64,000 nucleotides of DNA. Source: Stackebrandtia nassauensis DSM 44728. GTDB lineage: Bacteria; Actinomycetota; Actinomycetes; Mycobacteriales; Micromonosporaceae. The stretch spans positions 4,650,001-4,714,000 of the forward strand of contig NC_013947.1 in assembly GCF_000024545.1 (NCBI RefSeq). Reading direction: 5' to 3'. Shown here one piece after another: positions 12,836 through 64,000 of this stretch; positions within the stretch are counted from its first letter, which is position 1, and each line of letters starts with the position of its first letter. Position numbers and translations under genes: made by a program. The notes beneath the pieces were generated by a model, which was not told where the DNA came from, did not search any database, and saw only the letters and a list, made by a program, of their open reading frames with translations.

Positions 12836-12884
12836 GCGGTAGGGATTGACCTATATCGATTTTAGTCAATAGACTTGAAAGTCT

Positions 12885-12925
12885 CCTTGGGGCGGCCGAC
12901 CGTGCCGGGGCCTGCCGCCCCAAGG
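12885..12925. terminator. Bidirectional terminator hairpin
   Basis: CCTTGGGGCGGC (12885-12896) pairs perfectly with GCCGCCCCAAGG (12914-12925), with a 17-nt loop. It lies between the convergent siderophore-interacting protein and sugar-dehydrogenase genes and could stop transcripts from both sides. No long T-tract follows. Confidence 0.7.
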
Positions 12926-12933
12926 GGTTTCAC

Positions 12934-13965: not shown

Positions 13966-13986
13966 GTAAGACCCCTTCCGAAGTCA

Positions 13987-14006
13987 ATAGATCGGTGCGA
14001 ATCTAT
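13987..14006. promoter_or_regulatory. Inverted repeat upstream of the secreted sugar dehydrogenase
   Basis: ATAGAT and ATCTAT are separated by 8 nt, directly upstream of the dehydrogenase start at 13965. TCAATAGA also occurs just past the other end of that gene (12866-12873). This could be an operator; no regulator gene is adjacent. Confidence 0.35.
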
Positions 14007-14082
14007 CGATTCCGAAGAGTGAGGTCAATGTCTCATGTGCGCCAGTTATGGAGCCAGATCCCCTGCCCGGCAATGCTTTCGC

Positions 14083-14979
14083 TCAGGACTTGACCCACTC
14101 CGGATAGTCCGTGATGAGACTATCGGCGCGAATGGACAGCACCCACGACTGCGCCGAGCGGGTGTTGACCGTGTAGACCGCCAGCCGCAGCCCGGCCCTG
14201 TGCACCCGGCCGACGTCCTGCTTGGTGAGACGGCGGTAGTCGGCGCCCAGCTCGTCGGCCCAACCGGCGACCTGGCGCAGCGTCGAGGTGGAGGGCACGT
14301 CCGGGCTCAGCCACAAAAGCCGGTCCGTGGAACGCAGCTTCGCCATCCGGTGCAGGCTGTCGGCGTCGAAGGACAGGAACGTCATCGGCACGCCCCGCCA
14401 GCGGTAGTCGGCGTCGATGACCTTGTCGACGACGCGTTCCAGGCCGGGCGAGTCGTTGGGGTTCTTCAGTTCCAGGAACAGCCCGACACCGGTGCCGTCC
14501 AGGTGGTCCACCACCGCCGACAGCCGGGGAATCCGCTGTCCGGCGAACTTCTTGCCGAACCAGCTGCCCGCGTCCAGCCGCCGGATCTCGCGGTAGGTGA
14601 ACGAACCGATCGGATCGTGCTCGCGGCCCGGGAACACCGACTCGACGTCGGTGGTGCGGGCGAAGGTCCGGTCGTGCACGATGACCGGGACGTCGTCCTT
14701 GGACAACTGGACGTCGATCTCGATGTGCTCGGGCCGCAGGTCCACCGCCCGGGTCATCGCCGCGTGGGTCTGCTCGGGCGCCTTCCCGGCCGCGGCCCGG
14801 TGCGCCACCGTCACGGTCGCGGGCTCGGCGGCCAGGCCGGGCGCGGCGTCGACTCCGGCCTTCGGCGGTGCGGCGGTCACGGGATCCGGCTCGACCGCGA
14901 TGGCCGTGGCCGGGGTGCTTCCCGCCACCATCAGGGTCGCGACAATCGCGACGATCAACGGTTTGCTTCGTCTGCCCAT
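14083..14979 (-). CDS. Secreted glycerophosphodiester phosphodiesterase
   Basis: The 298-residue protein has an N-terminal signal sequence (basic MGRRSK, hydrophobic core, cleavage near ATA-IA). The GDPD core follows: VAHRAAAG (His60-Arg61), HIEIDVQLSKDDVPVIVHD (Glu87, Asp89, His102) and FLELKNP. The usual HRG is HRA here, but the catalytic His-Arg is kept. It would hydrolyse glycerophosphodiesters outside the cell, releasing glycerol-3-phosphate from lipid headgroups or teichoic acids. Confidence 0.88.
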   Translation of the reverse strand: MGRRSKPLIVAIVATLMVAGSTPATAIAVEPDPVTAAPPKAGVDAAPGLAAEPATVTVAHRAAAGKAPEQTHAAMTRAVDLRPEHIEIDVQLSKDDVPVIVHDRTFARTTDVESVFPGREHDPIGSFTYREIRRLDAGSWFGKKFAGQRIPRLSAVVDHLDGTGVGLFLELKNPNDSPGLERVVDKVIDADYRWRGVPMTFLSFDADSLHRMAKLRSTDRLLWLSPDVPSTSTLRQVAGWADELGADYRRLTKQDVGRVHRAGLRLAVYTVNTRSAQSWVLSIRADSLITDYPEWVKS

Positions 14980-15094
14980 CCGTCCGACTTCCTATGAGGA
15001 ATCGTCCTGACAGGCTCACGCTAAGGCAGGGAAGGGGCTTTTGTGCCCGCCTGCCCCAAATGCTCGCCGAAAGTTAACCCGGTGGTGTCAGTCA

Positions 15095-15259
15095 TTAACC
15101 CGGCGGTGCCGGTCCGCTCCAGCCGCCGGGCGGCGGCGGTGGCTGCTGGTCCTTCTTCCTGGTGACCAGGACGACGACCAGCACCACCACCGCGATGACC
15201 ACGACGGCGCAGCACAACGCCACCAGCATCCACGGCCTGACGGCACCCACGGTCGACAT
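15095..15259 (-). CDS. Small single-pass membrane protein (54 aa)
   Basis: A short gene starts with ATG 6 nt downstream of the UPF0182 stop, so it is in the same operon. The 54-residue product has one strongly hydrophobic Val/Leu/Cys-rich helix (about 10-32), then TRKKDQQ and a Pro/Gly-rich tail ending APPG. A 14-nt sequence at the stop (15095-15108, TTAACCCGG-GGTG) is repeated at 15074-15087, suggesting a small duplication at the 3' end. Function unknown; it may accompany the large UPF0182 membrane protein. Confidence 0.65.
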   Translation of the reverse strand: MSTVGAVRPWMLVALCCAVVVIAVVVLVVVLVTRKKDQQPPPPPGGWSGPAPPG

Positions 15260-15265
15260 GGTTGA

Positions 15266-50097: not shown

Positions 50098-51114
50098 TCA
50101 GCCGGCGAATCCCGCCGTGATGCTCGTGAACTCCCACTCCTTCTGGTCGATGCCGCTGCAGTTGGACGTGGTCCCGCCGCCAGGGCAGGGACGGTCCCGG
50201 TTCAGAGCCCAGAAGGTGAAGCGCGCCAACGAGTTCTGCTTCGCCCAGTCCCGGATCTTGGTCCAGGTGTCGGGCGAGGTCTCCTCCGACTGGTCCGACA
50301 TCCCGTTCATGCCCGAGATGCCCATGTGCGCGTACGCTTCGGCGTCGTCCCAGCCGTATGTCTTCTTCAGCTGGTCCCGCAGCCCTTCGGAGGCCGCGAT
50401 CGTGTCGGTGTAGATGTCGGACGATCCGAAGTCGAACGGCATGATCGTGAAGACGTCGATATTGGCCTGGAGCTCCTTCGACTTCTCGATCAGGTGCACG
50501 CCGTGCTCGTTGGGGCCGGTCTTGCCGGTCCCGAAGGTCACGATCGTCTTGATGTCCGGGTTCTTCTCCTTGACGATCTTCAGGGCGGACAGGATCCGCT
50601 CCTGCACCTCGTGGTTCTCGAACTCGTCGGTGTTCTCGATGTCGACGTCGATCGCCTTGAGTCCGTAGGCGTCGATGACCTTCTGGTAGGCGCCCGCCAG
50701 TTCCTCGGGGCTGCCGCAGCGCGGGCCGAGCTTGTCGCCCTGCCAGCCGCCGATCGACGGCATCACGTCACCGCCGTTGGCGCGCACCTCCTCGATGACC
50801 TTCTGGTCGACGCCACCCTCCAACGGCCGCTGCGAATCCCAGGAGGGGTTGCAGGTGCCGTCGGAGAGGATGAACGCCATCGTGAACGCCTTGACGCCGG
50901 TGGCGTCCATGACGGTCTTGACGTCGGGCGGGTCGCCCCAGCCCTCGAACAGATACGGGGCCGCGGCCATCTCCGCCGCACTGAGATCGGGGCTCGTCGA
51001 GGTGCCGGATCCCGACGAACCTTCGGTCTCGTTGGCGAACGCGTAGCCGGTGCCGCCGCCGACGGCCAGCACGGCGGCCGCGCCGAACGCGACCAGTCTT
51101 GTCCTGCGTTTCAT
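50098..51114 (-). CDS. Secreted GH18 chitinase-like glycosidase
   Basis: The 338-residue protein has a signal peptide (cleavage near YAFA-NE, residue 27), a short Ser/Gly/Thr linker and a GH18 domain. Visible parts are KAFTMAFILSDGTCNPSW, GDVMPSIGGWQGDK (the SxGG strand), KAIDVDIENTDEF (DxDxE with catalytic Glu) and FTIMPFDFGSS. It is closer to a classical chitinase than the paralogue at 40229-41203, since SIGG is kept. It is the last clearly chromosomal-backbone gene before the island-like region. Confidence 0.88.
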   Translation of the reverse strand: MKRRTRLVAFGAAAVLAVGGGTGYAFANETEGSSGSGTSTSPDLSAAEMAAAPYLFEGWGDPPDVKTVMDATGVKAFTMAFILSDGTCNPSWDSQRPLEGGVDQKVIEEVRANGGDVMPSIGGWQGDKLGPRCGSPEELAGAYQKVIDAYGLKAIDVDIENTDEFENHEVQERILSALKIVKEKNPDIKTIVTFGTGKTGPNEHGVHLIEKSKELQANIDVFTIMPFDFGSSDIYTDTIAASEGLRDQLKKTYGWDDAEAYAHMGISGMNGMSDQSEETSPDTWTKIRDWAKQNSLARFTFWALNRDRPCPGGGTTSNCSGIDQKEWEFTSITAGFAG

Positions 51115-51281
51115 GGGCTTGTTCTCTCCTGCCTGGTGATACGAGGCGCGGATGCGGTGCCCCTCAACAATTAAGAGTCTTTATACATCCGCATGCGTCA
51201 ATGTATCTGTCGGCTTGTGTCGGAGTCAACAGCCGCAAACGCTCACCGGAAGGGTTTTAAACTGTTTTAAGGCAACAAAAA

Positions 51282-51316
51282 AGTGGAGCGGCCTCCCGAA
51301 GGAAGACCACTCCACT
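51282..51316 (-). terminator. Orphan terminator at the edge of the island
   Basis: On the minus strand AGTGGAGTGGTCTTCC...GGAGGCCGCTCCACT forms a long hairpin followed by TTTTTTG, a textbook intrinsic terminator. No minus-strand gene ends just upstream; the nearest one ends at 52898. It may mark a gene lost when the neighbouring DNA was inserted. Confidence 0.85.
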
Positions 51317-51331
51317 CTCGCTCTGGTCGTG

Positions 51332-51625
51332 ATGATGTCTGAATCTTCGAACCTATTTCCGCAGGTCAAACGCCTGCATGAACAGGTTTGTGGACCCCAC
51401 ACCGGTCAGGTGGATAATCCTGGACCCCACCACCCTGCCCCGGCCCCAGCGGCTCCCGCACAACCGTGGGCGCTGCACCGCCGTTTGCGCCCTGAAGACA
51501 TCGAGGCGATCGTGACGGGTTTTCTTGCGGGGCAACGGCAAGTAGATTTGGCTGCTGCGTTCGGGATAGGACGCACCAGCGTAAAGCGGTTGCTGCGAGA
51601 ACGTGGTGTGCGGCGCGGCCGCTGA
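51332..51625 (+). CDS. Small HTH protein, recombinase-tail-like
   Basis: The product is 97 residues from an ATG without a clear ribosome site. The first half is Pro/His/Ala-rich. The second half, RRLRPEDIEAIVTGFLAGQRQVDLAAAFGIGRTSVKRLLRERGVRR, is a homeodomain-like HTH of the kind found at the end of serine recombinases and in small transposon-linked proteins. It may be a remnant of a mobile-element gene. It sits exactly where base composition shifts, beside an orphan terminator. Confidence 0.6.
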   Translation: MMSESSNLFPQVKRLHEQVCGPHTGQVDNPGPHHPAPAPAAPAQPWALHRRLRPEDIEAIVTGFLAGQRQVDLAAAFGIGRTSVKRLLRERGVRRGR

Positions 51626-51829
51626 TCAATAATGCGGCGTGAGCATTCGAGATTGCTCGCCACCATTCGTACCTTCAAACCACTCCGTGGATGTCGCGAA
51701 CCTTGCTGGATCACTGAACGCAATCTCCCAGCCCGATTCGCTGGGTCAAGGCGCCGCGTGTCATACCTGTCACAGCCTTGCGATACAACGAAACCAGGTC
51801 ACACGACCAACTCTGTGAAACGAGGAACT

Positions 51830-52765
51830 GTGGGAGATCGTGACTACCGTATCGGCAACGATCGCGGACTATTTCTGTTCGGCAAGGGCTACTGCTACTT
51901 CCCAAAATGTCAGGTTCGCGCTTTGCGCGAGGTTGGTGACAACCTTGTTACCCAGGTTCAACGCGCCCACATCTACGCTGCCAAAGCGGGTGGCTTGCGT
52001 TACGACCCCATGATGACCGTTGAGGAACGCAAGAGCCACCGCAACCTCATCCTGCTGTGCTACCCGCATCATGCCGAAGTCGACCTGAATACGAACCTAC
52101 ACAAGTACCCCGCATCCCTACTCCTGCAATGGAAGAAGGACCGCGAAGGCGACCAGCTTGAAGCACTTCGTGGGCTCGAAGGGCTGAGCCAGGAAAAGTT
52201 CGAACGCATGCTCATCGACTCGGTGGCGAGCGCGAAGTCCGAAATCCTTGGGGCAATCAGCGACTTGCCCGAAGAGATCGGGGATCTCTTGCGCAATGAA
52301 CTCGACAAGGCATTTCGGGGCCCCGAACTCGACAAAGACGCTATCTACTCCCTCAACCACGCAACGACTCTGCTTGCGAGAATGGAGTTTCCTTATCAGA
52401 CCGATGCTCTGTGGAAGGCCGCCAAATTGTTCTCGCAATTGGTTTCCGACACCGGACTCGGCCGCCTCCCTGACGCGCTCCAGAGTTCGAACTTCCGCCG
52501 ACTGCCCGGCATTATCGACGAACTCGAACGTCAGGCAGACCTGCCAGACTCCTTGGACAGGTCTTTGTCTAACTTGGATAAGGCTCAACGCACGATCGAG
52601 CGACTCGAGAACGTTACCGAGCAACTTGCTGATCAATCGATAACAGACATCGTTGACAGAGGTCGTTTCTGGGACTACCTAAAGATCGGCGCAGTTGTCG
52701 GGTTCGTCGCGGGTCTTCTGGTTGCTGGAGCCGTCGCTTACCTCATCTCGCTGGGCGCACAGTAG
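51830..52765 (+). CDS. HNH nuclease-domain protein with C-terminal membrane anchor
   Basis: The product is 311 residues from a GTG with GAGGA close upstream. Residues 20-85 carry an HNH-type zinc/His pattern: Cys22-x4-Cys27 (CYFPKC), RAHIYAAKAGGLRYDP (His47), NLILLCYPHHAEVD (Asn72, Cys77, His80-His81, Asp85). The order AHI-GG-R-D-ER-NLILLC-HH-D is that of HNH domains found in bacterial defence effectors such as Cap5. No SAVED domain follows. Instead there are about 190 helical residues and one membrane helix (about 285-307). A membrane-tethered nuclease is unusual. The GC content is lower than in the backbone genes. Confidence 0.78.
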   Translation: MGDRDYRIGNDRGLFLFGKGYCYFPKCQVRALREVGDNLVTQVQRAHIYAAKAGGLRYDPMMTVEERKSHRNLILLCYPHHAEVDLNTNLHKYPASLLLQWKKDREGDQLEALRGLEGLSQEKFERMLIDSVASAKSEILGAISDLPEEIGDLLRNELDKAFRGPELDKDAIYSLNHATTLLARMEFPYQTDALWKAAKLFSQLVSDTGLGRLPDALQSSNFRRLPGIIDELERQADLPDSLDRSLSNLDKAQRTIERLENVTEQLADQSITDIVDRGRFWDYLKIGAVVGFVAGLLVAGAVAYLISLGAQ

Positions 52766-52897
52766 CTTGCAACACTACGTTGATCGCCTGCTGGGCAGCG
52801 CTGTATCCGAAACGCGTTTATGTAAGCGAAACTGCGTGTTGACGCTGCCGTCCAACCCTCAACTTGGGCCTCGATTCCGGTAACACATCATCGTATT

Positions 52898-53464
52898 TCA
52901 TTTCTGCCCAGGATTGGCAGCCTTGAGCGTCTTGGCCATAGACTCCAAGGCTTCAGCTGCATGACTGATGGTCTTGCCAGCGGCAGAGGTCTTCTTGAGT
53001 TGCGGCAAGTCAAGTTCGTATGTCAGCGTTTCGAGTTTCTCGTTCGAGTACAGTCCGTGCGCATCCACAGTGACTTGGACAGGGCTGTCACCGTTTGAAC
53101 CTAGAAACGTAACCATTGCCCCCAGAGGCCGTACAAACTGTGCGCCCGGCGGAAGAGACTTTATTTTCCACTCGCCCAGCGGCGGATCATCCGGACCTCG
53201 TTCAATGACAAGAGGTCGGCTGAATTTGATGTGCACATAGGTGGCCACCGTCGGCCCCTCATTACAGACAACAAGCATTGCAAGTCCCTTCGTATGTTCA
53301 GCCGAACGGATATCCGCGAACACATAGGGCTGCATCTGGTCAAGGTGGACTTCCTTCGCATGATCCACAGCAGCTTTCGCGATTCTTGTCTGAAGAATCG
53401 TAAGAACGAACGCGCCGACAGCTACGGCAGCTGCCACCCACGCCGCGCCGGTTTCTGAAAACAT
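52898..53464 (-). CDS. Single-pass membrane protein of unknown function
   Basis: The product is 188 residues from an ATG with TTGGAG 6 nt upstream. One N-terminal helix (about 8-25) is followed by a helical stalk (RIAKAAVDHAKEVHLDQMQPYVFADIRS) and a beta-rich domain with NEGPTVATYVHIKFSRP. Proteins of this shape are common in actinobacterial accessory regions and have no known role. It is transcribed in the same direction as the nuclease-like gene 270 nt upstream and may belong with it. Confidence 0.7.
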   Translation of the reverse strand: MFSETGAAWVAAAVAVGAFVLTILQTRIAKAAVDHAKEVHLDQMQPYVFADIRSAEHTKGLAMLVVCNEGPTVATYVHIKFSRPLVIERGPDDPPLGEWKIKSLPPGAQFVRPLGAMVTFLGSNGDSPVQVTVDAHGLYSNEKLETLTYELDLPQLKKTSAAGKTISHAAEALESMAKTLKAANPGQK

Positions 53465-53747
53465 GGTGATCTCCAATCTCGTACGGCAACGTTATGGATC
53501 GGATACGACACAGCGGTAGGGACTTTTGGCCGGGTCGCGGCTGCCAGTAGGACATGCAGGACTCGGTCAGTGCCGCTTTTGGCCGCTGTCTCGCCAAGGT
53601 TCAAGGGCGGTTCGGTCGCATCCACGTCGGCCCAGGTTGCGTCGCGTACATCGAGGGTGCCGGTTTGAAGATCAGTCCGTCCCACAGGTCAGTGATTTCG
53701 ATGAAAACCACCTCGGCCTTTCCCTGGTAAGTTTCTAGCTGTTCCAT
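53422..53747 (-). pseudogene. Possible small frameshifted gene between the nuclease and the membrane protein
   Basis: An ATG at 53747 overlaps the end of the large nuclease gene by 13 nt and reads MEQLETYQGKAEVVFIEITDLWDGL, then stops at 53601. Another frame continues with coding-like sequence (LDVRDATWADVDATEPP, TDRVLHVLLAAATRP) from about 53685 to 53422. One frameshift near 53680 would join them into a protein of roughly 107 residues overlapping the start of the next gene. No family is recognised. Confidence 0.35.
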
Positions 53748-56011
53748 TCGTATTGGATTTCTCTTTGGCCATTTGAGCGGCTGAACTCGTAGTTCCTTAG
53801 CCCGAGGTTTCTCTCGCATGAGGCGATGGCGGTTCCGATCACGCCTGCGAAGTTCTTGTCATCCCACCGCCACGGGTGGCTCTGGCTACCGGGCGGTTGT
53901 GAGAGGTCGGGGTTTGTCAAGACTAGTGGCATGTTTGGTAGAACTCTGCCGTTACGTGTTTGGATTGGTTTTGATTGTTCAACGAGCTCGCGCAGTTCGT
54001 CGATCTCGTGGGAGGAGAACTCGTCCTTAAGGGTTGCGAATAGGAGGAGGCACCGTACGCCTTTCTCAGACAGTTTGTCCTGTAGAAATCTCAGGTTGGC
54101 GATGTCGTTCGCGTCGATGTAGTTGGCAGTTTTTACCTCGCCTAGCACAACCGTCCAGTCGTGGTCGGGCAAATAGACCGCAACATCGACCTCTACGGTC
54201 TTTCGGTCTATCGAAACTTCCAACCCAAGCATGTGGGACAGAGGGGGTTCCTCGATGTGCCTCAACTGGCTTAGGAAAGAAGTTGTAGCTAGCGCTGGAA
54301 GTAGTGCCTGTACTTGGTCAGCGCGTAGATGGGCTGCCAACCTGTAACGCCACTCAGGTTGGACGAGTGAATGCGATAGGGCAAGTTTGAAAGAATCGCC
54401 ACAGAACTCACAGGTCATTGTCGTTGCTAGATTATCTGCCGACACGTAGCTATCTGCTCGGCAGGTACTGCATTGCACTCTAAGTGTTGGGACAAAAAGC
54501 CCACTATAGAGAAGTCGGTTCAACTGTTGAACTGCGTAGTCCTTTGGGCTCAAACTCCGCTCGTAGAGAGGATCTGGCCAATTTCCTCGTTGGCTCTCAA
54601 CGGTTTGACGAAGGTGAGGAAGCGTTACTCCAGCGTTCCTGCCTGCTGCGAGTGCAACCGCAGCGCGGTTTCCAGGTTGGCTGAACACGCCACTGAACAC
54701 TCCGCCGAACTTTTCAGCTGCCCGAGACTGGAACTTGCCAATGTCTGACTGTGTTATTGAAACGGAGTCATCGTCAAAGAGGAGGCGCATGACGTCCTGG
54801 TTATAGACGAATGGAAAACGTGCATGATCTCGTTCAGCGGAGACGCCAAGAGCTACTCCTGAGTCTGTCACGCGTGCGTGATCGATTCCTTCCATGCTAA
54901 GAGCATGCTTAAGCAACGAAGAGTGGCGCCTGTACGGAGGGATGGAGCCAGTCAATCGTGGATCTTGACCGAAGACACTGTGCAAGTTGATTTCTGCCGC
55001 AATGATCCCTCGTGCAATGATATCTGGCTCATCGTTAATGGGTAGTGTCGGCAAAGCAATGTCAAACCAGTGCGCGCCAGGTCTGAAGTCAGCACGGATG
55101 GAACGTGTGAATGGGGTTTGAAGCCCTTGGAACTCGAAGCGTGTCCAGCTTTCGCGATCGTAGGGTCGCACTTTCATTCCGTTGCGCGCGGCCACCATTT
55201 GTATTGCTTCGGAGATTTCGTGGGACGCGTCGTCGAACCCCCATACACACAGATCCTGTTGGACTTCGGAACCAGCGTTCATACCTCTGTCTGTGACAAA
55301 GGGAAGACCTGACGAAATGAGAAGTTTCAGCAGTTCCTCGGTCCCCATTGCGGACACGCCGATAATCTTCGTGCCGTAGACACGCATATTCCAGAACTCT
55401 ACAACGTCCTCTGGATGGTCAGGTCGCACCACATAGATGCCGGTGAAGCCGTCGAGGTAACCACGTGGATTCGCTCTTATATGGAGGATAGTGGCTGAAA
55501 GTACGCCCACGGTCGACCGATTCGGTTCCCGACTCGAAAGAACCTCAAGGTATGGCGCAGACCGCAGTTCGTTGTCGTAGCCATTTGAGGCGAGTGACAA
55601 GCCAAGGTGATCCGGGAGACCCCAGTTTGCCGCATACAACAAATCATCCTGGTCTTCACGATCCCATGTTGGTTGAACGAGGGTGGTAGATGTGTCGATG
55701 AATGAGCGGACAGGTAGCAGGCCCTTACGGAACCCCTCCTCCTCACCAAAGGGCCCCCAAGGACCGCGACCGCTCCAGATCCATCCGGGTTTCCTCAAAA
55801 GAACTCCGAGCGGCCCATCGACCGCATCGGCATCAAGCGAGTCAACGTCGTATTGACGTCCTTGCTGTTCCAACTCTTCGATTGGTGCACCGATGTCGAA
55901 AATCGGCATAAACTGGCCGCCCCAGACAGATGACAGTTTCGCGATAGCTTCGCGTACTCCCTCTTTGGATGTTGTGTCGGTGAGGACGCCAACTCGCCAC
56001 GGGCGAATCAT
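53735..56011 (-). CDS. Zinc-ribbon protein with C-terminal PD-(D/E)XK-like nuclease domain
   Basis: The product is 758 residues from the ATG at 56011, which has GAGG 7 nt upstream (an ATG at 56047 lacks a site). The N-terminal ~500 residues are not recognised; they contain VGVLTDTTSKEGVREAIAKLSSVWGG and EDVVEFWNMR (201-210). A four-Cys ribbon follows (514, 517, 534, 537). Residues about 595-670 fit a PD-(D/E)XK fold: KTVEVDVAVYL (Glu607, Asp609), VVLGEVKTANYID (Glu625, Lys627), then a helix and LLLFATLKDEF. This suggests a nucleic-acid-cutting effector, perhaps in phage defence. GC content is below the backbone. No ATPase or methylase partner is nearby. Confidence 0.75.
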   Translation of the reverse strand: MIRPWRVGVLTDTTSKEGVREAIAKLSSVWGGQFMPIFDIGAPIEELEQQGRQYDVDSLDADAVDGPLGVLLRKPGWIWSGRGPWGPFGEEEGFRKGLLPVRSFIDTSTTLVQPTWDREDQDDLLYAANWGLPDHLGLSLASNGYDNELRSAPYLEVLSSREPNRSTVGVLSATILHIRANPRGYLDGFTGIYVVRPDHPEDVVEFWNMRVYGTKIIGVSAMGTEELLKLLISSGLPFVTDRGMNAGSEVQQDLCVWGFDDASHEISEAIQMVAARNGMKVRPYDRESWTRFEFQGLQTPFTRSIRADFRPGAHWFDIALPTLPINDEPDIIARGIIAAEINLHSVFGQDPRLTGSIPPYRRHSSLLKHALSMEGIDHARVTDSGVALGVSAERDHARFPFVYNQDVMRLLFDDDSVSITQSDIGKFQSRAAEKFGGVFSGVFSQPGNRAAVALAAGRNAGVTLPHLRQTVESQRGNWPDPLYERSLSPKDYAVQQLNRLLYSGLFVPTLRVQCSTCRADSYVSADNLATTMTCEFCGDSFKLALSHSLVQPEWRYRLAAHLRADQVQALLPALATTSFLSQLRHIEEPPLSHMLGLEVSIDRKTVEVDVAVYLPDHDWTVVLGEVKTANYIDANDIANLRFLQDKLSEKGVRCLLLFATLKDEFSSHEIDELRELVEQSKPIQTRNGRVLPNMPLVLTNPDLSQPPGSQSHPWRWDDKNFAGVIGTAIASCERNLGLRNYEFSRSNGQREIQYEWNS

Positions 56012-56498
56012 TGCTGTGCCTCGTGCCTCCGCCATATCTGGTGCCATGATTTGATCGTAAAGGGATCACTCGATCACAGCAGCACAGATGGCGGACCGCG
56101 ATCGTATGCCGCACAGTTGTCGGAAGTGGCCTAGCGTGTAGACAAGGTCTACGGATGTCCGACGGGACCGCGAGATGACCGTTCCCCGATATCTACCGTC
56201 GATGAGTCCCATGAGCAAAATCGTGCTCGGCGATCGACGGGTATGGATCGGCACCGACCACAGCTTCTACATCGCTCCAGAAGACAGCAGTGGTGGTGTC
56301 CGGTGGGGGGTGGTGGAAGCTCGGTCGACTTGGCGAACCTGTTTGATCAACTTTTGGACGGCAAGAAACATCTGGGCCTCAGTAGCGGACGGCGGCCACC
56401 AGAACAACTTCTCGCGATTGCACGGCACAAGTGGACACCAGGAACCGACAGAACGGCCCTGCACATGCCAGGGCCACCCTGCACATCACTGGGTCCTA
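56012..56498. other. Gap without a clear gene
   Basis: This stretch holds the promoter side of the nuclease gene. A short plus-strand frame beginning near 56211 (MSKIVLGDRRVWIGTDHSFYIAPEDSSGGVRWG) looks partly coding but breaks; another frame near 56320 continues plausibly (VDLANLFDQLLDGKKHLGL). This may be a decayed small gene. I cannot support an intact one. Confidence 0.4.
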
Positions 56499-56936
56499 TC
56501 AGGACATCCACTGTTCGGCAAGTGTCTCGGCGTCGGTGAGGTAGTCGTCGAGCCGTTGCTTCATGTGGTCAGATTGGTCGACGATCTTGCGAATGGCCAA
56601 GAACTGGAGCCGCATCTGATCAGCCGGGGAAATCTCGTCCAGGAGGTGCTCCTCCCCGAACAACACGCGGAACAGTCCTTCCATCGCTAGTGGCTGGAAG
56701 GGCGGGTCGGCTTTGCGGAAGTCATGTCGCATCTCGTTCACGAAGCGCTTGATGGCTTCCGGGCTTTGGTCCGCTTCGAACTGGTGGCCAGCCGCACCAG
56801 CGAACATCGCTGCTACATAGATGGCATATGCCTCGCGGTCGGCGTCAGGTATCTGCTCGTTAAGTTCCCGGGCTTTGGCTCCGTCGCCCAAAGCCATTGC
56901 CTTGACGGTCTCTCGAAACAGCTGGTTACTTGGCAT
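56499..56936 (-). CDS. Hypothetical helical protein coupled to the coiled-coil membrane protein (145 aa)
   Basis: A soluble, all-helical, acidic protein (LFRETVKAMALGDGAKARELNEQIPDADREAYAIYVAAMF; FQPLAMEGLFRVLFGEEHLLDEI) with no Cys. Its ATG lies inside the last codons of the upstream gene (11-nt overlap), so it is translationally coupled. I do not recognise a family. Alternating helical repeats could be TPR-like. A chaperone or immunity-type partner is one possibility. Confidence 0.7.
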   Translation of the reverse strand: MPSNQLFRETVKAMALGDGAKARELNEQIPDADREAYAIYVAAMFAGAAGHQFEADQSPEAIKRFVNEMRHDFRKADPPFQPLAMEGLFRVLFGEEHLLDEISPADQMRLQFLAIRKIVDQSDHMKQRLDDYLTDAETLAEQWMS

Positions 56937-57924
56937 TGCCCTTCTTTCTGATCAACCTAGTTACTCCCTCTACCGCGATGACTGTCAGAACCACAGTCGT
57001 CCCAACTACGTCTGACGCCTTCACATCGGTTGCGTAAGACGAGATCACCGGGACGCGGACGTCAGCCTGCGTTGTCGCTGTCGAGTTCCCATAGTCGTGC
57101 GGGTCGTAGCCGTCATCGATGGAGAACGAAGCGCTGTCGGTGGCGTCCTTCGATGTGGCAGCGACATCACTGGCGTTTCTGGCGAATGCTCGCCCAAATC
57201 GACTGGCCTTCGACCGTGCTGAATCTTCATCGTCAGCACTCTTCAGCTCGGCACGGTGGTCGCTGGTGTCGTCGGGACCTCCTTGTGGTGGTTGTATCGG
57301 GTCGCCGATTTTGGCGACGGGTTCGTGATCTTGAGTTGGTGGTTGGCCTCGCGGGGTGGCCACGACTTCGGTTTGGAAGGGTGGCGGACTGGGACTTCTG
57401 CTGGTTGAGCTTGTTAATCCTTTGGAGGAGCCTTCGATCTTGTTGCGGTATGCCTGGGCCTTGGTCACGGTTGCCTGGGCAACGGTTTGGGCTTGACCAA
57501 CCGCCTGCATCACGGTCATCACGTGTGTGGTGACTGCTTCGACTTCGGCATGCTGAGCCTGTGTCAGTGCGTTTTCGGTGTTGCCGTTTGCTTGCTGCAA
57601 CAAGGTCCCGCTGTTGCCTAGCGACTGGAGAGCCTTGTCAAGGGCGGCGACAGTTTCGGACACCCTGGTTTTGTCCGTCACGCCGCTCAACCCGGTCGTG
57701 GCTTCGTCTGCCTGGCTATGAGCGTCGCCCAACTGGCCTATCGCCGATTGCACGTCCCGGGCCACGGCCTGAAGGGTCATCACCACCCCTTCCAGGCCCA
57801 GCATGTTCATTTCGTCGATCTTTTCTTCAGTCGTGGTGTTAGTCAGCTCGGCCGCGGTTTTCGCGTTGGTGATCTCGGTGCCGGTCTTTTCTACTTCGCT
57901 TTTGATGTCGTCCAGTTCGGACAT
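56926..57924 (-). CDS. Coiled-coil protein with proline-rich linker and C-terminal membrane helix (332 aa)
   Basis: The first ~165 residues are Ala/Gln/Thr-rich helices with coiled-coil character (MSELDDIKSEVEKTGTEITNAKTAAEL; ALTQAQHAEVEAVTTHVMTVMQAVGQAQTVAQATVTKAQ), like small WXG100-style or DUF6244-type proteins though no WXG motif is seen. A Ser/Pro-rich linker, an acidic region and one membrane helix (about 305-325; VVGTTVVLTVIAVEGVTRLIRKKG) follow. GGAGA precedes the ATG. Function unknown. Confidence 0.7.
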   Translation of the reverse strand: MSELDDIKSEVEKTGTEITNAKTAAELTNTTTEEKIDEMNMLGLEGVVMTLQAVARDVQSAIGQLGDAHSQADEATTGLSGVTDKTRVSETVAALDKALQSLGNSGTLLQQANGNTENALTQAQHAEVEAVTTHVMTVMQAVGQAQTVAQATVTKAQAYRNKIEGSSKGLTSSTSRSPSPPPFQTEVVATPRGQPPTQDHEPVAKIGDPIQPPQGGPDDTSDHRAELKSADDEDSARSKASRFGRAFARNASDVAATSKDATDSASFSIDDGYDPHDYGNSTATTQADVRVPVISSYATDVKASDVVGTTVVLTVIAVEGVTRLIRKKGNAK

Positions 57925-58487
57925 ATTGGTGAGTCTCCGTAATGAGTCAGGGGGGTAATCCGCGCGGACCCTGTGATCAGAAAACGACATGAGTCGATGT
58001 CGAGGCCGATGCAGAGGGCTTCGCCATGCGGGGACGCGCATGCATGGATGCAGCCTCGGACTGTGGCAAGCTGAGCGCGCCCGGACTAGGGGCAGCATCA
58101 GTTCACGATGCGGCCACGAGAACCTCGCCGCGTGCTCGGCTGTTTGGGTAGTCGCAAGCTCGACTGGCTCTAACGTGGATTTACGGAGTGACCACTGTTT
58201 TCGCTGGAATGGGGAAGTGTCGATGCATTGTGCGCCATACACTCTCATGCCTCCGTGAGTCGTGATAGGGGGTGCACCACGAGTGGTGCGTTGAGTCGCA
58301 TTCGAGGATACGCACCGCGACGACTCCATATGTGACCCCCACCCCACCACTCGCGTGCTCGGGTCCAATGCGAGGTTTCTTAGACAGCAATGAACGAATA
58401 GGACGGTACGTACGCCCATTGACGGAAGCATGAGCGCACGACAGCGGGCGCCTCGCTTCGTCGAGGCACCCGCTGTCGTGAATCGGG
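57925..58487. other. Gene-free stretch with a long hairpin
   Basis: No coding frame is convincing in these 563 bases. The upstream promoter of the coiled-coil gene must lie here. At 58437-58480, CACGACAGCGGG-c-GCCTCG pairs with CGAGGC-a-CCCGCTGTCGTG around CTTCGT; it starts 8 nt past the DUF397 stop and is its likely terminator, although no T-run follows. Confidence 0.6.
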
Positions 58488-58712
58488 TTAGCTATCGAAT
58501 GAACCGTCTTTGATGTCCGATACCCATGCGGCCCAATCAGCAGCCGAGACTGCCAACGCCCCTCCGGAGCGGTTCTTGGTATCACGCACCGCGACTACGC
58601 TGCCTGCTCTGGCACCGACTTCTACGCAGTTTCCACCCGAGCTGCCGGTGCGGGTGCTCACCCGCCAAGATGTGATGCCCAAGTTTGGGGGTGTTGGGGC
58701 TTCGTTGTTCAC
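58488..58712 (-). CDS. DUF397 protein
   Basis: The 74-residue protein has the DUF397 pattern: TSWRVSTRTGSSGGNCVEVGARAGSVVAVRDTKNRSGGALAVSAADWAAWVSDIK. Its ATG overlaps the stop of the XRE gene by 4 nt (ATGA). DUF397 proteins are almost always paired with XRE-DUF5753 regulators in filamentous actinomycetes (BldB/WhiJ-like modules) and are thought to modulate the regulator. Confidence 0.93.
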   Translation of the reverse strand: MNNEAPTPPNLGITSWRVSTRTGSSGGNCVEVGARAGSVVAVRDTKNRSGGALAVSAADWAAWVSDIKDGSFDS

Positions 58713-59560
58713 TGCTTGTCTACCTCTGACTTGATGAGCTTACGAGATGGCTCGGGGTCAAGGCTGGACTGTAGCAGGAGTTCATATTTCTGCTTGAGGT
58801 GATGAATGGCGTCGCCTTCCACACAGACTTCGCCGGAGGGAGTCGTCAAAAGTCCGGCTTCGGGGTATGGGTCGGCGAGAGACAGAACTTCGAAGCTGCC
58901 GTTCATCCCGGCATGAAAACCAGCACTGTCGGGTAGGACGCGTAGCTCGATATTTGGCCGCTCAGAAACTTCCGCGAGAAACCTCAGCTGCGGTAGTCCC
59001 GCCTCGCTATCGCTTATGGCCCTTCGGATCACGGATTGATCGATGATGGCTCGAAGTGTGATGGGCTCATGCTTGGTGATGATGAGTTGGCGGGTAGTGC
59101 GTACGTCATGCCAGCGTTCAAGTCGCTCAGAGCTCGCGTCAGGTTGGTCGGCCGCCATAACCGCACGAGCATAGGCGGAGGTTTGCAGCAAGCCCGGTAC
59201 CAGGATTGGCTCAAAAGCATCGATGTGAACCGCCTTTGATTCGAGCCAGATGCGGTCCATGAGTTCGGAGGCAAGCTCGCCTGCGAACCCGTCCCACCAC
59301 CCTTTGCGCAATACGTCGTCGCAGATCTTGAAGACATCGGAGCGCCGTTTCGGATCGTCGATACCGCAGATGCGTAGATACGCCTCAACATGTTGGACAC
59401 TCGCGGGGTATATGCCGTTCTCCAGCTTGGACACGTTTGCTTGGTTGAGGTGAACCAAGCTGCCCATAGCCCGAACCGTCAAACCTGCTTCGTCGCGCAT
59501 CTTGCGAAGTTCCTGTCCGAGCCATACGGCACGGATGGTCGGTTTACGTCCTGATGCCAT
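58709..59560 (-). CDS. XRE-DUF5753 regulator (WhiJ-like)
   Basis: The 283-residue protein has an N-terminal Cro/C1 HTH (LGQELRKMRDEAGLTVRAMGSLVHLNQANVSKLENGIYPAS) and a C-terminal DUF5753 domain (IDAFEPILVPGLLQTSAYARAVM; RQLIITKHEPITLRAIIDQSVIRR; ELRVLPDSAGFHAGMNGSFEVL). Such regulators, with a DUF397 partner, adjust development and antibiotic production and are numerous in these genomes. It forms a coupled operon with the DUF397 gene. Confidence 0.93.
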   Translation of the reverse strand: MASGRKPTIRAVWLGQELRKMRDEAGLTVRAMGSLVHLNQANVSKLENGIYPASVQHVEAYLRICGIDDPKRRSDVFKICDDVLRKGWWDGFAGELASELMDRIWLESKAVHIDAFEPILVPGLLQTSAYARAVMAADQPDASSERLERWHDVRTTRQLIITKHEPITLRAIIDQSVIRRAISDSEAGLPQLRFLAEVSERPNIELRVLPDSAGFHAGMNGSFEVLSLADPYPEAGLLTTPSGEVCVEGDAIHHLKQKYELLLQSSLDPEPSRKLIKSEVDKQ

Positions 59561-59773
59561 GTCGACACCTCCTAGTCGCTTACGCCTACCCTAAACGATT
59601 AGAGATTTTGCCGAAACCCTTCTTTGACTCCAGTAGGCTAAACGTTGCGCAAAATCTGTAAGCATGGTATAACGGATGTACCCACTGGTGATGCCGGTCA
59701 CGGCCACAGTGAGTACACATAGGATTGAGGCTTCCGCTGCCGCTCTTGAGTGGTGGCGGGGGAATGGTTAAAC

Positions 59774-59821
59774 GACCAGGGCGAGCCGAACAGTTTGGAC
59801 GCCGTGAGGCTCGCCCTGGTC
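59774..59821 (+). promoter_or_regulatory. Long perfect inverted repeat before a small ORF
   Basis: GACCAGGGCGAGCC (59774-59787) and GGCTCGCCCTGGTC (59808-59821) match over 14 bp with a 20-nt loop. The repeat ends 11 nt before the GGAGGT of the small gene at 59846. It could be an attenuator, a protein-binding site or an upstream terminator. Confidence 0.6.
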
Positions 59822-59845
59822 CAGAAGAGACCGGAGGTCTCCGTC

Positions 59846-60049
59846 ATGAATGACGAAAACGTGCCCGATCTGCTCCCAGTCTGCCAGGCGCTACGCGCCC
59901 TAATCGTCAGCGACCCGATCGTAGGCGCGCAGTGGCGTGATCTGGTCGCCGATATGGGCAAGGTCTTCACCACGCACCTGCAACGTCCGGAAGCCTCCCA
60001 CCGATGCCCTGACCATGCCGGTGCGAGGTCTCTGCGGGCGTCGGGTTGA
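59846..60049 (+). CDS. Small hypothetical protein (67 aa)
   Basis: The ATG has GGAGGT 7 nt upstream, the best ribosome site in this part of the island. The product (MNDENVPDLLPVCQALRALIVSDPIVGAQWRDLVADMGKVF...) has a plausible helical start and a less coding-like C-terminus (SHRCPDHAGARSLRASG). No family recognised. A long inverted repeat lies just before it. Confidence 0.5.
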   Translation: MNDENVPDLLPVCQALRALIVSDPIVGAQWRDLVADMGKVFTTHLQRPEASHRCPDHAGARSLRASG

Positions 60050-60340
60050 TCGCCTAGTCCGCCGTAGGTGTCCCCGAGAGGTTCGAAGCGGTCTCCTCCG
60101 TATCGCGACCGGACCTGAGCGGGGATGGCCGAAGCCCTGCCGCCGACGTTCTCGCCTCCCGGGATCGAAAGCAGCATTCGGTTTCGGCCGGTGGGGCGGC
60201 TTCGGTTGTTCACACACCGGACGCGCACAAGTTCGGGGATTGAGTCCCCCCGACGCGCGGCGTCCGCACCGACCGCCCCACCCTCTATCAATCCACAGTC
60301 ACTATTCGATATTCCTATGTAGGAAGAAGGCGAACATGTC

Positions 60341-60856
60341 ATGTACGCCAACAACAATCACACCGACACCTCCACCAAGGACACCGGTAGGAGACTGATT
60401 CGTGAGGAACCACCCATCTGGCCGTCACCGACCAACTCGACACCCTCTCGAAGCGACACCGACACACCCGAATCGCCGTCAAGTCCGATAGTGGTGATGC
60501 TCGGATTGTTCACCGCGTGCGGATGCCAGATCTCAGCAACCATGCTCAGCGGCGAAACCCATGTGTTCCTTGACGTGATCTCGCGGGGCGGGTCACGCAC
60601 CTCACCGCTGGCGACAGTGTCGGGTATCGACAAGCCAGACCCGCGCGTCGCCATCGAGCAAAGCCACCGGCATTGGGCCGAAACACCGGAAGTCCGATGG
60701 TTGCTCATTCGCGAAGCGGCGTGGCTATACCGCGCCTGGCTCGCTGACCAAAGGCGCCCGTCGCGCTCGGGTCCGCACGCGCGACCGCGTCCGGCATCCT
60801 CAACAACACCCCGTTCCAGCGCCAACGGCGCGGGCGAGTTTCCGAGGGTGGGCTGA
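60341..60856 (+). CDS. Hypothetical protein upstream of a small membrane protein (171 aa)
   Basis: The N-terminus is Asn/Thr/Ser/Pro-rich and probably disordered. The middle has a hydrophobic stretch (PIVVMLGLFTACGCQISATMLSG), then IEQSHRHWAETPEVRWLLIREAAWLYRAWLADQR, which looks structured, and a Ser/Arg/Pro tail. AGGAAGAAGG lies upstream. It is followed 3 nt later by a two-helix membrane protein gene. No family recognised. Confidence 0.55.
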   Translation: MYANNNHTDTSTKDTGRRLIREEPPIWPSPTNSTPSRSDTDTPESPSSPIVVMLGLFTACGCQISATMLSGETHVFLDVISRGGSRTSPLATVSGIDKPDPRVAIEQSHRHWAETPEVRWLLIREAAWLYRAWLADQRRPSRSGPHARPRPASSTTPRSSANGAGEFPRVG

Positions 60857-60859
60857 GCC

Positions 60860-61018
60860 ATGGCCGCTATCTGCTTGCTGCTCACAATCGCCGCGATCCT
60901 AGGGCTAATCGCCGCAATCATCGCCAAAAGCTCGCACCGACCCGACGCGGGCGAGACAGTACGCGACTTCGGTATCGGCGCGTTCATCGCCGCCTGCCTG
61001 CTTTGGTTTCTCAGCTGA
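60860..61018 (+). CDS. Small two-helix membrane protein (52 aa)
   Basis: MAAICLLLTIAAILGLIAAIIAKSS forms one helix and DFGIGAFIAACLLWFLS a second, with a short polar loop (HRPDAGETVR) between. Its ATG is 3 nt after the stop of the upstream gene, so the two form an operon. Function unknown; small membrane proteins are common in actinomycete conjugative elements. Confidence 0.6.
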   Translation: MAAICLLLTIAAILGLIAAIIAKSSHRPDAGETVRDFGIGAFIAACLLWFLS

Positions 61019-61074
61019 CGTCTCGCGCCGCCTGAACGACCGCAATCTACCCTTCCGATCTTTCGGAGACCTTC

Positions 61075-61755
61075 ATGGACACTCAACAACCGGGGCGGAG
61101 CCTGCCTAAGGCACCGAGGCCCTCACGATCTACCGCAAGCCCCGCAAGCGCGAACTCGCTGCGCTCCTGGGCTAAGGCGGCAGCAACCGGTGATACCGAA
61201 GCCTTCGTGCGGCTGTACGCCTCCTGCCGAGGCTGGGTACTGGGGCGATGCCGTGCCCAACTGGCCGTGCACGACGCCGAAGACGCCTGCGCCGAGGTGT
61301 TCACTCGGGCCTGGCGACACCTCCACTCGGGCAAGACAATCGAGCATCCCCTCGCGTGGCTGGCCACCGTCACCCGGCACTTGATCATCGACTACCGCAA
61401 ACGCGCCGCACGCACCCCACCATCCGGCGATCTCGCGTGCGACTTCCTTCCCGACATGACCCCGCGCGACGCCGACACCGTTCACGCCGGGCGCTGCGAC
61501 CCTTCGCCGGGGCCAGCCGACCTCGCCTCCGTCATCGACGTGACCCCGGTCGTGCGCTCGTGGCTGGCCGCACTGCCCTCGCAGGCAAGCGCGGTTGTCA
61601 CCGGCTATTTGGCCAACGAGGACCCCGCAGCCACCAGCAACCGCCTCGGATGCAGCGTGGCGGCCGTACGGTCCAGTCTCTACCGCGCCCGCAAACACTT
61701 GCGCACCCGACTAGCCGCACACGACCTGCCATGCCCGCCCATAAGACGCTGCTGA
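61075..61755 (+). CDS. ECF-type RNA polymerase sigma factor
   Basis: The 226-residue protein has a region 2 with AFVRLYASCRGWVLGRCRAQLAVHDAEDACAEVFTRAWRHL and a following WLATVTRHLIIDYRKRAAR. After a 50-residue linker comes region 4: WLAALPSQASAVVTGYLANEDPAATSNRLGCSVAAVRSSLYRARKHLRTRL. Both DNA-binding regions are present. No anti-sigma gene follows. GGAGA precedes the ATG. It probably controls genes of the island itself, as sigma-like factors do in some integrated actinomycete elements. Confidence 0.85.
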   Translation: MDTQQPGRSLPKAPRPSRSTASPASANSLRSWAKAAATGDTEAFVRLYASCRGWVLGRCRAQLAVHDAEDACAEVFTRAWRHLHSGKTIEHPLAWLATVTRHLIIDYRKRAARTPPSGDLACDFLPDMTPRDADTVHAGRCDPSPGPADLASVIDVTPVVRSWLAALPSQASAVVTGYLANEDPAATSNRLGCSVAAVRSSLYRARKHLRTRLAAHDLPCPPIRRC

Positions 61756-62219
61756 CCAGTCACAACGAGCTGCTGTTTCCTGGTCGTGGCCGTTGTCGCC
61801 GCTGTGTCGCCCGCTCGCGGCCTGTCATGGCCTGATGGCTTCTCGGGTCCGGGTCCGGGTCGTGGGAGTGGCAGCGGCTGTCAGGCGTCTGGGTGTGCTG
61901 CTGATGGCTCGATGTGGAGGGTGGCAGGTGGGTAATAGGTATTAGTGCGACTGTCTACATGATCAGATACTGTGGACGGTCATTACGGGTCCGCCTTGAC
62001 CCTTGTCTGCTGACACTTCTCCCTGGGGGTATGTATATAAGTAGGACTCGATCACGGTTCAGTGTTTATACGGCGCGACCAGGCGTAATACCTGTCTCTG
62101 GACTGGGTGGTGGTGTCGGAAGCCGTGACGGGGCGGGTGTCGAAAGCCGGGACGAAGGCGGTGACGGGAACGAATCGGAGCATCTAATCCACTCGGGACG
62201 AAAACTTTCGGGTCGGGGT
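61756..62219. other. Non-coding stretch with direct repeats next to the replication-relaxation gene
   Basis: No gene is convincing in these 464 bases. A local AT-rich patch (GGGTATGTATATAAGTAG, about 62026-62043) is followed by a 19-nt direct repeat, GGTGTCG.AAGCCG.GACG, at 62112-62130 and 62136-62154 (17 of 19 identical, 24-nt period). AT-rich DNA plus short repeats beside a replication-relaxation gene is compatible with an origin or transfer site. Confidence 0.5.
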
Positions 62220-63137
62220 TTAGGTCCAGCCGCCGACGCGGTAGTCGTCGCTTCGGCAGTATTTCATGAACTCTAGTGAGTCCAGGCGCTTTTTAGCGGG
62301 CGGAATCTGGTCGAGGCGCACGCGGACCTCGTCGTGCCCGACAAGCCACCACACCGCATCGGCAGGGTCGGTCGCGAGTTCGGTGATGGTGGTGGCGACC
62401 GGGAACGACAGCGGCCGTTCAGCACGTGCCAAGGCGAGGGTGTGGTGGAAATGGGTTTCTCGACCCGGTTTGTCAATCTGGAGCAGCACCGGCGTGAAGT
62501 TGTCCCGCCAGGGCTGGTCGTATTCCTTGTCGTAGGCGTCGATCTTGTCGGCCAAGACATGCAACGGTTCGGTGCCGGTGTCGTGCTCGAACCAAAATTC
62601 CAACACCCTGTCATCCATGTGGATGGTGGCGCCTCCGTCGGGCCGGGGTTTGGTGTTGGTGAAGAACAGGCTGGACTCAGCCGAACTCAACCACCGCTCC
62701 ACCACCCACCCCTCGTCGGCGCGGTGGCGGCAGCACGCGGTCAGGCGGGTGAAGAAGTCGTTGGTGGATTCAGTGTGGCCGCGGTGGGCCGAGTGCATGA
62801 TCCGCGTCGCTTGATCGAACACGGCCTTCTTGGTCGGAGTCTTGGCATCCGGATTGGTCGCGACAGCATGAACGCAGGCACCCCAATACGCGAGGGTGTA
62901 GCGCCAGGCTTGCCGATTGTGCGAACGGTATCGCGTGATGACGTCCAGCTCCACCAGCGTGGATAGGCGGTCGCGGGCGGAGGATTCGGAGTCGAAGAAC
63001 AGCCGCGCCACCTGCGCTTTGGTCAGCACCTTGTACCGCCCCAACGCATCAATGATCAACCGGTCCCGCTCCTGCAACCGCCCCGCCAGCTCCTCCAAGC
63101 CCGCGACCGGTTTCGACCGCTTGCGCCAACTCGTCAT
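62220..63137 (-). CDS. Replication-relaxation family protein
   Basis: The 305-residue protein starts at an ATG overlapping the stop of the upstream membrane-protein gene (ATGA). The N-terminal winged helix (LQERDRLIIDALGRYKVLTKAQVARLFFDSESSARDRLSTLVELDVITRYR) and the following nuclease-like region (VVERWLSSAESSLFFTNTKPRPDGGATIHMDDRVLEFWFEHDTGTEPLHVLADKIDAY) match the replication-relaxation family (PF13814) of actinobacterial plasmids and integrative elements. The E-D-x-G-T-E stretch suggests a PD-(D/E)XK-type core. This supports the view that the end of the window lies in a mobile element. Confidence 0.88.
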   Translation of the reverse strand: MTSWRKRSKPVAGLEELAGRLQERDRLIIDALGRYKVLTKAQVARLFFDSESSARDRLSTLVELDVITRYRSHNRQAWRYTLAYWGACVHAVATNPDAKTPTKKAVFDQATRIMHSAHRGHTESTNDFFTRLTACCRHRADEGWVVERWLSSAESSLFFTNTKPRPDGGATIHMDDRVLEFWFEHDTGTEPLHVLADKIDAYDKEYDQPWRDNFTPVLLQIDKPGRETHFHHTLALARAERPLSFPVATTITELATDPADAVWWLVGHDEVRVRLDQIPPAKKRLDSLEFMKYCRSDDYRVGGWT

Positions 63138-63439
63138 GGCGACCCCACCCCCGCTAGCCACGCGGCCAGCTCCGGCCCGTACGCCAACACCAGCAGCCAC
63201 CCGACGACCAGCAGCATGACAATGCGGCCCCGACGATGGATCAGCCCGTAGAACACGACGAACCAGGCAGCGGCTACGAGCCACCACACCTTCCACCCGA
63301 AGTAGATCTGGCGCAGCCAGAAACCAGGCGTGCGACGATACGCCAGCCAACGGCGGTGGTACCACGACCCATCAATCACCTTCCCGTTGTCATCTCGCGG
63401 GGGTCCAGCCTCGAACCCCCGCGTCTTCTCAATCCCCAA
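63134..63439 (-). CDS. Small membrane protein upstream of the replication-relaxation gene (101 aa)
   Basis: The TTG at 63439 is 9 nt from a perfect AGGAGG; an in-frame GTG at 63448 abuts the site and is less likely. The product has a polar N-terminus (GFEAGPPRDDNGKVIDGSWYHRRWLAYRR) and two hydrophobic helices (WWLVAAAWFVVFYGLI; IVMLLVVGWLLVLAYGPELAAWLAG). It is translationally coupled to the replication-relaxation gene. Role unknown; probably part of the element's transfer or maintenance module. Confidence 0.7.
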   Translation of the reverse strand: MGIEKTRGFEAGPPRDDNGKVIDGSWYHRRWLAYRRTPGFWLRQIYFGWKVWWLVAAAWFVVFYGLIHRRGRIVMLLVVGWLLVLAYGPELAAWLAGVGSP

Positions 63440-64000
63440 ACTCTTCACCCTCCTTTCATCAGTTGTCGGCAAAGCCAGGGACACCACCCCGCCATTACTC
63501 GGCGAGCGGCTTCTTGTGTAGCTCGAAACCACCGCCCGCAGCAGCAATTTCCTGCATCCGTGACCAGCCCAAACGATCACAGGCCAATCACAAGCCCTGA
63601 TGCGTGACCGTTCGCGGCAGTGATGCCTCGTGGTCAAACCACCAGGCGCGCGGGGCATGGTGTCGCGTTCCCATACCACCGGTGGTGGCCACCGCAACCG
63701 TTTGCCGTTGCGGAATCGTTACACGCATGCCGGTCACGCGGGACAGGTGCCGACAACCGTCACCGCTTGTCTGTTTCTGCTCGTGCCGCGTGAGCGGTTG
63801 CGCGCAACCGGGGCGTGAGTGTCGGTGGCCGAGCTGGTGGCCGCGCGTGACCGAGAAAAATCCGAAATAGTGACGCAAGTGGCCCGTGAGGTGGTCGACC
63901 GAGCTACCATCGACTGCTCTCCACCCAGGTCCAGGTCGCGTCGGCAAGACCAACGTCAATGACTCGACGCCACGTTTCGAGCATCGCGAACAATCCACCA
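63440..64000. other. Non-coding stretch rich in small palindromes at the right edge
   Basis: I find no supported gene. Several perfect palindromes occur: ACCACCGGTGGT (63675-63686), CGCAAC...GTTGCG near 63693-63712, and CGGTTGCGCGCAACCG (63795-63810). The word GCAACCG recurs. A GTG-started plus-strand frame near 63820 (MSVAELVAARDREKSEIV) reads well for about 30 residues but stops after 47. This could be the control region of the operon to the left or part of an origin. Confidence 0.45.

Follow-up and report, generated by a model that had tools for sequence, protein, structure and literature searches.

A large nuclease-like gene in an acquired island

The window analysed here is a 64,000-nucleotide stretch of Stackebrandtia nassauensis DSM 44728 (contig NC_013947.1, positions 4,650,001 to 4,714,000). 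On its minus strand it carries an open reading frame (53735–56047) for a protein, P0001, in which a long N-terminal part is followed by a putative zinc ribbon and a predicted nuclease core. Read from the first ATG, P0001 has 770 amino acids, and read from a start codon at 56011 it has 758. The start at 56011, which displays GAGG seven bases upstream, is better supported than the first ATG, which has no clear ribosome site. Residue numbers below refer to the 770-amino acid form, in which the E625 and K627 of the original prediction, made from the sequence alone, become E637 and K639. That prediction described a 758-residue protein with a VEFWNMR motif, a C2C2 ribbon and a nuclease-like motif, and all of these elements are present in the translated frame as VEFWNMR, C526/C529/C546/C549 and EVDVAVYLPDHDWTVVLGEVK. 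As the longest open frame in 200 shuffles of the stretch had a mean of 120 and a maximum of 265 codons, and as the motifs are conserved among relatives of P0001, the frame is not a product of chance and the gene is real.

Neither Pfam, NCBIfam nor PADLOC has a name for this protein or its family. P0001 matched nothing in Pfam at E-values up to 1, and its single match in NCBIfam, to the S27e ribbon (0.2), is meaningless. The PADLOC models gave a single weak match, to the end of PDC-S01 (E = 0.0022), which is limited to the nuclease motif region (residues 614–669) and is displayed by only one of the 22 family members described below. Zinc-ribbon matches to ribosomal S27e, thioredoxin 2 and Sec24 reflect the ribbon alone. 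Matches of P0001 to designed TIM barrels in a phmmer search were set aside because they stem from a repeated single beta-alpha unit.

The P0001 gene is in an acquired island, as its low guanine-plus-cytosine (GC) content, a serine recombinase at a tRNA-Pro gene and the absence of the stretch from the sister genome G157 demonstrate, in agreement with the lower-GC region with mobile-element genes of the original prediction. The GC fraction is 0.54–0.58 at 52–60 kb, 0.62–0.65 at 50–52 and 60–64 kb, and 0.66–0.74 in the first 50 kb of the window. The flanking core DNA of G157 ends at the equivalent of window position 49871 and resumes at that of 66284, and the gap between these flanks measures 1.3 kb in G157 compared to 16.4 kb here. 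The absent stretch spans approximately 50100–64000 of the window and continues to about 66.2 kb. Past the window, at the equivalent of 64443–66182, the serine recombinase frame lacks a stop codon ahead of tRNA-Pro(ggg) and extends through the tRNA, which suggests that the island boundary coincides with the end of the recombinase gene or falls within that end. Behind the tRNA come cmk and further core genes (identified by reading the sequence), and the 80 kb read contained no repeat of the tRNA-Pro end. As the corresponding position in a second sister genome, G1009, is occupied by 8.7 kb of unmatched DNA (L070, about 7075–15795), this spot may be an insertion hot spot. A GC-rich GH18 gene (50098–51114) may be older than the low-GC part of the island.

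Conserved motifs and a possible likeness of the core to Can2/Card1

To define the conserved elements of P0001, we used an alignment of 22 members of its family (A4), from which a near-copy (L014), a broken gene (L054) and fragments were left out and in which L009 is represented by its longer piece. The members are 16–25% identical to P0001 and 632–1012 amino acids long as read, most of them 740–900, and the N-terminal ends of two (L044 and L018) look over-extended. The window coordinates given here for elements of P0001 are all on the minus strand.

The four cysteines of the ribbon, C526-x2-C529 and C546-x2-C549 (54401–54472), are invariant in all 22 members. They are followed by a PD-(D/E)XK-type core (residues about 566–712; 53912–54352), delineated by alignments and a profile search of the PDB. 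The catalytic motif of the core, E619-x-D621 … E637-x-K639 (54131–54193), was assigned by conservation and by alignment to E276/D278 of Can2. D621 and E637 are found in 22/22 members and E619 and K639 in 21/22, with a threonine replacing the lysine of E-x-K in L011; the catalytic D and E are also present in each of the 23 sequences of a separate C-terminal alignment (A9). S434 and G437 are conserved in 21 of the 22 members and Y568 in 20. Comparison with characterized families points to a PD-(D/E)XK fold and to zinc binding, and the conservation is as expected for an active metal-dependent PD-(D/E)XK nuclease whose zinc ribbon is structural or binds nucleic acid. Because no member deviates at the ribbon cysteines, D621 or E637 and only one does at K639, the assignment to the metal-dependent PD-(D/E)XK nucleases is well supported, and members of the family very probably possess nuclease activity. 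The zinc-ribbon nuclease of the original prediction is thus upheld by conservation across the family.

The N-terminal region of about 500 residues contains two further conserved blocks. The first, RPWRVGV…SVWGGQFMPI (residues 15–49; 55901–56005), comprises W42 (18 of the 20 members with a residue at this position), G43 (19/21), G44 (20/21) and P48 (19/21). The second, D214…FWNMR (residues 214–222; 55382–55408), comprises D214, found in 20/22 members, and W219 and R222, each found in 15/22. Comparison of this region to Pfam, NCBIfam, PADLOC and the PDB gave no consistent match. Its profile matched nine PDB entries at E-values up to 10, with no CARF structure among them, and the Pfam search likewise gave no CARF match.

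The core itself appears to be most like that of the Can2/Card1 (DUF1887) nucleases. When the A9 profile was compared to all PDB chains, the first three of six matches were Can2 (7bdv, E = 0.019), VC1899 (1xmx, E = 0.041) and a further DUF1887 protein (8bao, E = 0.27), all in register on the E-x-D and E-x-K elements and with E276/D278 of Can2 aligned. Taken singly these matches are marginal; that three members of one family align with their catalytic residues in register is more telling. In the excerpted text of PMC7969007, the E276A/D278A mutant of Can2 is inactive and VC1899 carries the equivalent pair. The same excerpted literature describes VC1899 as an orphan, so that association with type III CRISPR (Cas10) does not strictly define the Can2/Card1 group. 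As a control, a profile of pPIWI-RE restriction endonucleases (REases; A10) retrieved none of the three DUF1887 chains. A10 contains six of the examples collected by PF18154 from eight of 197 genomes; the two others had been picked in the wrong frame and were dropped. Among the 22 members, one each, perhaps the same one, matches PADLOC Csx1 (7e-5) and CARF_PDDEXK (1.4e-4), and one matches Card1_endonuc of Pfam at E = 0.24. The P0001 family differs from Can2/Card1 in having a zinc ribbon, in the lack of an N-terminal CARF match and in the size of its members, as the three DUF1887 chains matched in the PDB have 366–387 amino acids. Because the N-terminal 500 or so residues match nothing consistently, we do not call P0001 a Can2 or Card1 protein.

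Family distribution and gene neighbourhoods

The P0001 family is a divergent family of large proteins, each encoded by a single gene, found on plasmids, in the genomic island described above and in a phage. A single-sequence search of 298 genomes of the order with P0001 returned only P0001 itself, and profile searches found relatives in 13 of 393 other genomes of the class. Relatives were found in four of 395 other genomes of the phylum, one of them apparently L002 again, since G329 carries what looks like the same 6031-base contig. L002 is the one relative returned by a search of genome contigs; it is apparently broken and is 54% identical to P0001 over residues 63–249. Profile searches and tblastn found relatives on plasmids of Rhodococcus, Burkholderia glumae (two near-copies), Streptomyces, Piscirickettsia and Embleya, and partial relatives in Sphingomonas, Hoyosella and Mycobacterium gallinarum. 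A plasmid protein of Bradyrhizobium (P0009, 768 amino acids) matches P0001 over residues 5–49 and 396–698. No match to P0001 was found by tblastn in the phages collection, and eight scans of viral contigs yielded a single viral relative, L055: six scans found none and one returned the same contig. Several relatives appear broken. A search of the literature, which mostly lacked subscription papers, found no publication tied to the family.

The neighbourhoods of the family gene were compared at 22 loci; L014, L016, L055 and the fragments L002, L004, L017 and L019 were left out. Neighbouring genes were picked by a script that evaluates GC content by codon position, so some of them may be spurious. 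All-against-all BLAST of the 357 genes picked, with the family genes set aside, showed that 40 have a relative at another locus: 28 recur at one other locus, 12 at two others and none at more. The twelve include the replication-relaxation gene of the window (62220–63365, minus strand; PF13814, 7.4e-28), which has relatives close to the family gene at loci L009 and L052; replication-relaxation proteins are a mark of actinobacterial mobile elements. As no neighbour recurs in more than three of the 22 loci, and as the membrane-protein and HNH genes near the P0001 gene in the window have no relatives at the other loci, the conserved unit is one gene and not a module.

Individual loci place the family gene among defence or mobile genes. 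In L047, whose sequences were read by eye, it begins 15 bp beyond the hsdR gene that closes an hsdM-hsdS-hsdR operon and precedes a DUF262-like gene; an integrase is found at the opposite end. In L055 (3670–6285) it is antisense to a series of terminase, portal, scaffold and major head protein genes on one strand and is followed by the major tail protein gene. On plasmids L013 and L014, three tyrosine recombinases and a small gene precede the family gene, and on plasmid L012 helix-turn-helix and PIN genes are directly upstream of it and tyrosine recombinase genes are near. A PrlF/YhaV pair is directly upstream in L003, where an annotated abortive infection gene is also near; L042 has a Cas3-like gene nearby (HD motif by eye, Cas3 models matched) and L044 two proteins that read as TIR. 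We also scanned 111 neighbour proteins from 21 loci, having dropped the window, proteins shorter than 110 or longer than 1100 amino acids and one piece of the L054 family gene, and considered the best 25 of 173 families in one library and the best 25 of 117 in another. Among the matches listed are subunits of type I restriction systems, a Cas3 match, AbiEi and TIR, with TIR_2 found in three of the 111 proteins (best 25 of 117 families). The proximity of relatives to defence or mobile genes is thus seen repeatedly, in the form of recombinases, the hsdR operon and phage genes. A conserved housekeeping context, named beforehand as one of two findings that would speak against a defence module, was looked for across the 22 loci and not found.

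No methylase recurs beside the family gene at the 22 loci and none was found among the window neighbours scanned, consistent with the earlier statement that this is not a standard restriction system. CoCoNuT and McrC-type nucleases also combine a zinc ribbon and a PD-(D/E)XK domain in one protein, according to the part of PMC11090510 available; they belong to McrBC-type systems with a GTPase, and no such partner recurs beside the P0001 family.

Within the window, the gene downstream of the P0001 gene (52898–53476, minus strand) encodes a membrane protein of 192 amino acids with one hydrophobic stretch. The gene is real and on the same strand, as had been predicted; the partnership proposed with it did not hold, since the comparison with the genes at the other 21 loci yielded no relative of the 192-amino acid protein, and a two-gene module was rejected. 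Relatives of the membrane protein are present in seven of 100 other genomes of the bacterial family, including G063, in which a single-sequence search found no relative of P0001. The small frameshifted ORF postulated between the two genes (53477–53734, minus strand) is doubtful: the stretch has fragments in two frames that lack a clear codon bias, at best a decayed remnant. The adjoining gene for an HNH protein with a transmembrane segment was located at 51632–52765 on the plus strand, and its product has the expected C-terminal hydrophobic stretch. The HNH part of this protein matches PADLOC PDC-M68A (1.6e-20), an endonuclease effector model (2e-18) and the N-terminal part of the SAVED_HNH model (1.6e-17), and the rest carries the membrane end. 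Relatives, mostly of the HNH part, are found in 16 of 100 other genomes of the bacterial family, and the protein is a separate candidate effector. Upstream of the P0001 gene, a run on the same strand (56499–59560, minus) encodes a 145-amino acid protein of no known kind, a long ORF whose C-terminal part is of low complexity and an XRE-DUF5753 regulator, none of which was shown to have a relative at the other loci.

A probable role in defence and its alternatives

Combining these findings, we propose that P0001 is a stand-alone sensor-nuclease of anti-invader defence. This is the most likely reading of the evidence, with a probability of roughly 0.6, and it holds that the family protects cells against foreign DNA. 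The N-terminal 500 or so residues would form an unnamed regulatory or recognition region that reads a sign of invading DNA or of infection. The zinc ribbon would help to hold nucleic acid, and the metal-dependent PD-(D/E)XK core in the C-terminal third (E619, D621, E637, K639) would do the cutting, either of invader DNA or indiscriminately, in which case the cell would be halted. A P0001-type gene would travel as single-gene cargo on islands, plasmids and phages. The broader proposition of a role in defence or in conflict between genetic elements is probable.

Several observations weigh against the defence reading or against the likeness of the core to DUF1887. Some loci, L011 and L048 for example, have no obvious mobile or defence context, many neighbours at other loci are ordinary genes, and the counts of defence neighbours come without a background rate. 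In a search with the whole-protein profile, the two DUF1887 chains listed rank below ribbon proteins (1xmx, 0.08; 7bdv, 1.6), and single-sequence searches with P0001 and with the C-terminal part of the L047 protein did not find chains of this group. The Card1_endonuc profile of Pfam had no match in the S. nassauensis genome or in 117 others. Structure predictions were of very low confidence, with a mean predicted local distance difference test score of 32.4 for P0001 alone and 38.4 for the nuclease core with one relative.

Two of the alternatives are narrower versions of the proposed defence role. Type IV-like enzymes are often found behind type I restriction operons, and the gene of L047 has precisely this location. 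A modification-dependent enzyme of this type would act alone, its N-terminal region would read a modified base or an odd DNA structure, and it would cut directly without cell death; the large stand-alone protein, with an N-terminal region distinct from its PD-(D/E)XK motif, is in keeping with this. However, the 22 Pfam families listed for the 22 members (E-values up to 1) include no known modified-base reader domain, and we consider this version possible but rather unlikely.

A role outside host defence, in which P0001 is a selfish nuclease or a maintenance factor that serves mobile elements in plasmid or island competition or in element transfer, is somewhat less likely still. It accounts for the many relatives on plasmids, some of which adjoin recombinases, and for the replication-relaxation gene near the family gene in the window, L009 and L052. 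Yet transfer and element genes recur in at most three of the 22 loci, the antisense gene of L055 is among phage structural genes, and the contexts are too varied for a function in one element.

The second narrower version, which we regard as doubtful, is that of a second-messenger effector in which the N-terminal region would bind a nucleotide signal and switch the nuclease on, by analogy to the CARF domain of Can2 and cyclic tetra-adenylate. It draws on the closeness of the core to Can2/VC1899, on the Csx1 and CARF_PDDEXK matches mentioned above and on SMODS cyclases, which are found in seven of the 14 tested genomes that hold the family. However, Cas10 (TIGR02578) has no match in any of these 14 genomes, and the S. 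nassauensis genome has neither a Cas10 nor a SMODS match; moreover, the N-terminal profile retrieved no CARF structure. A dependence on Cas10 was rejected on the lack of a match in the 14 genomes.

Descent from the REase subunit of pPIWI-RE systems is improbable. As outlined in the excerpted text of PMC3702460, this subunit consists of a helical region, a zinc ribbon and a REase domain, so that its parts have the same order as those of P0001, with the ribbon and the REase domain at the C-terminus. Whole profiles of the two families aligned collinearly over ribbon and nuclease in hhalign with E = 0.0029 for one comparison but a probability of only 10.8, and the nuclease part alone gave E = 0.25 and a probability of 0.24. 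The pPIWI-RE REases are also shorter (386–593 amino acids in six of the eight), pPIWI_RE_REase is absent from the Pfam families listed for the 22 members, and the triad of REase, DinG helicase and pPIWI-RE does not recur around the family gene. The profile comparison thus allows, without establishing, an ancient link to these REases, and membership of a pPIWI-RE system was rejected on the weak profile match and the lack of a recurring triad. Finally, a housekeeping enzyme with an incidental island location, to which the relatives among ordinary genes in L011 and L048 would correspond, is very improbable and was rejected on the sparse distribution of the family and the absence of the island from G157, the lack of a conserved context at the 22 loci being a further point against it.

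The sensor-nuclease proposed here belongs to a new family of a known kind. More speculatively, the family could represent a class of single-protein immune nucleases, widespread and unnamed, in which a Can2/Card1-like core has lost its coupling to CRISPR signalling and become joined to a zinc ribbon and a new sensor of about 500 residues with WGG and FWN(L/M)R blocks, such that one polypeptide would both detect and destroy invaders. If the proposed defence role is true, Actinomycetota and Pseudomonadota would share a defence family that consists of one gene and has no name in Pfam, NCBIfam or PADLOC; its nuclease core would connect it to CRISPR second-messenger effectors, but its sensor region would be new. 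A single gene with clear catalytic residues makes this role easy to test.

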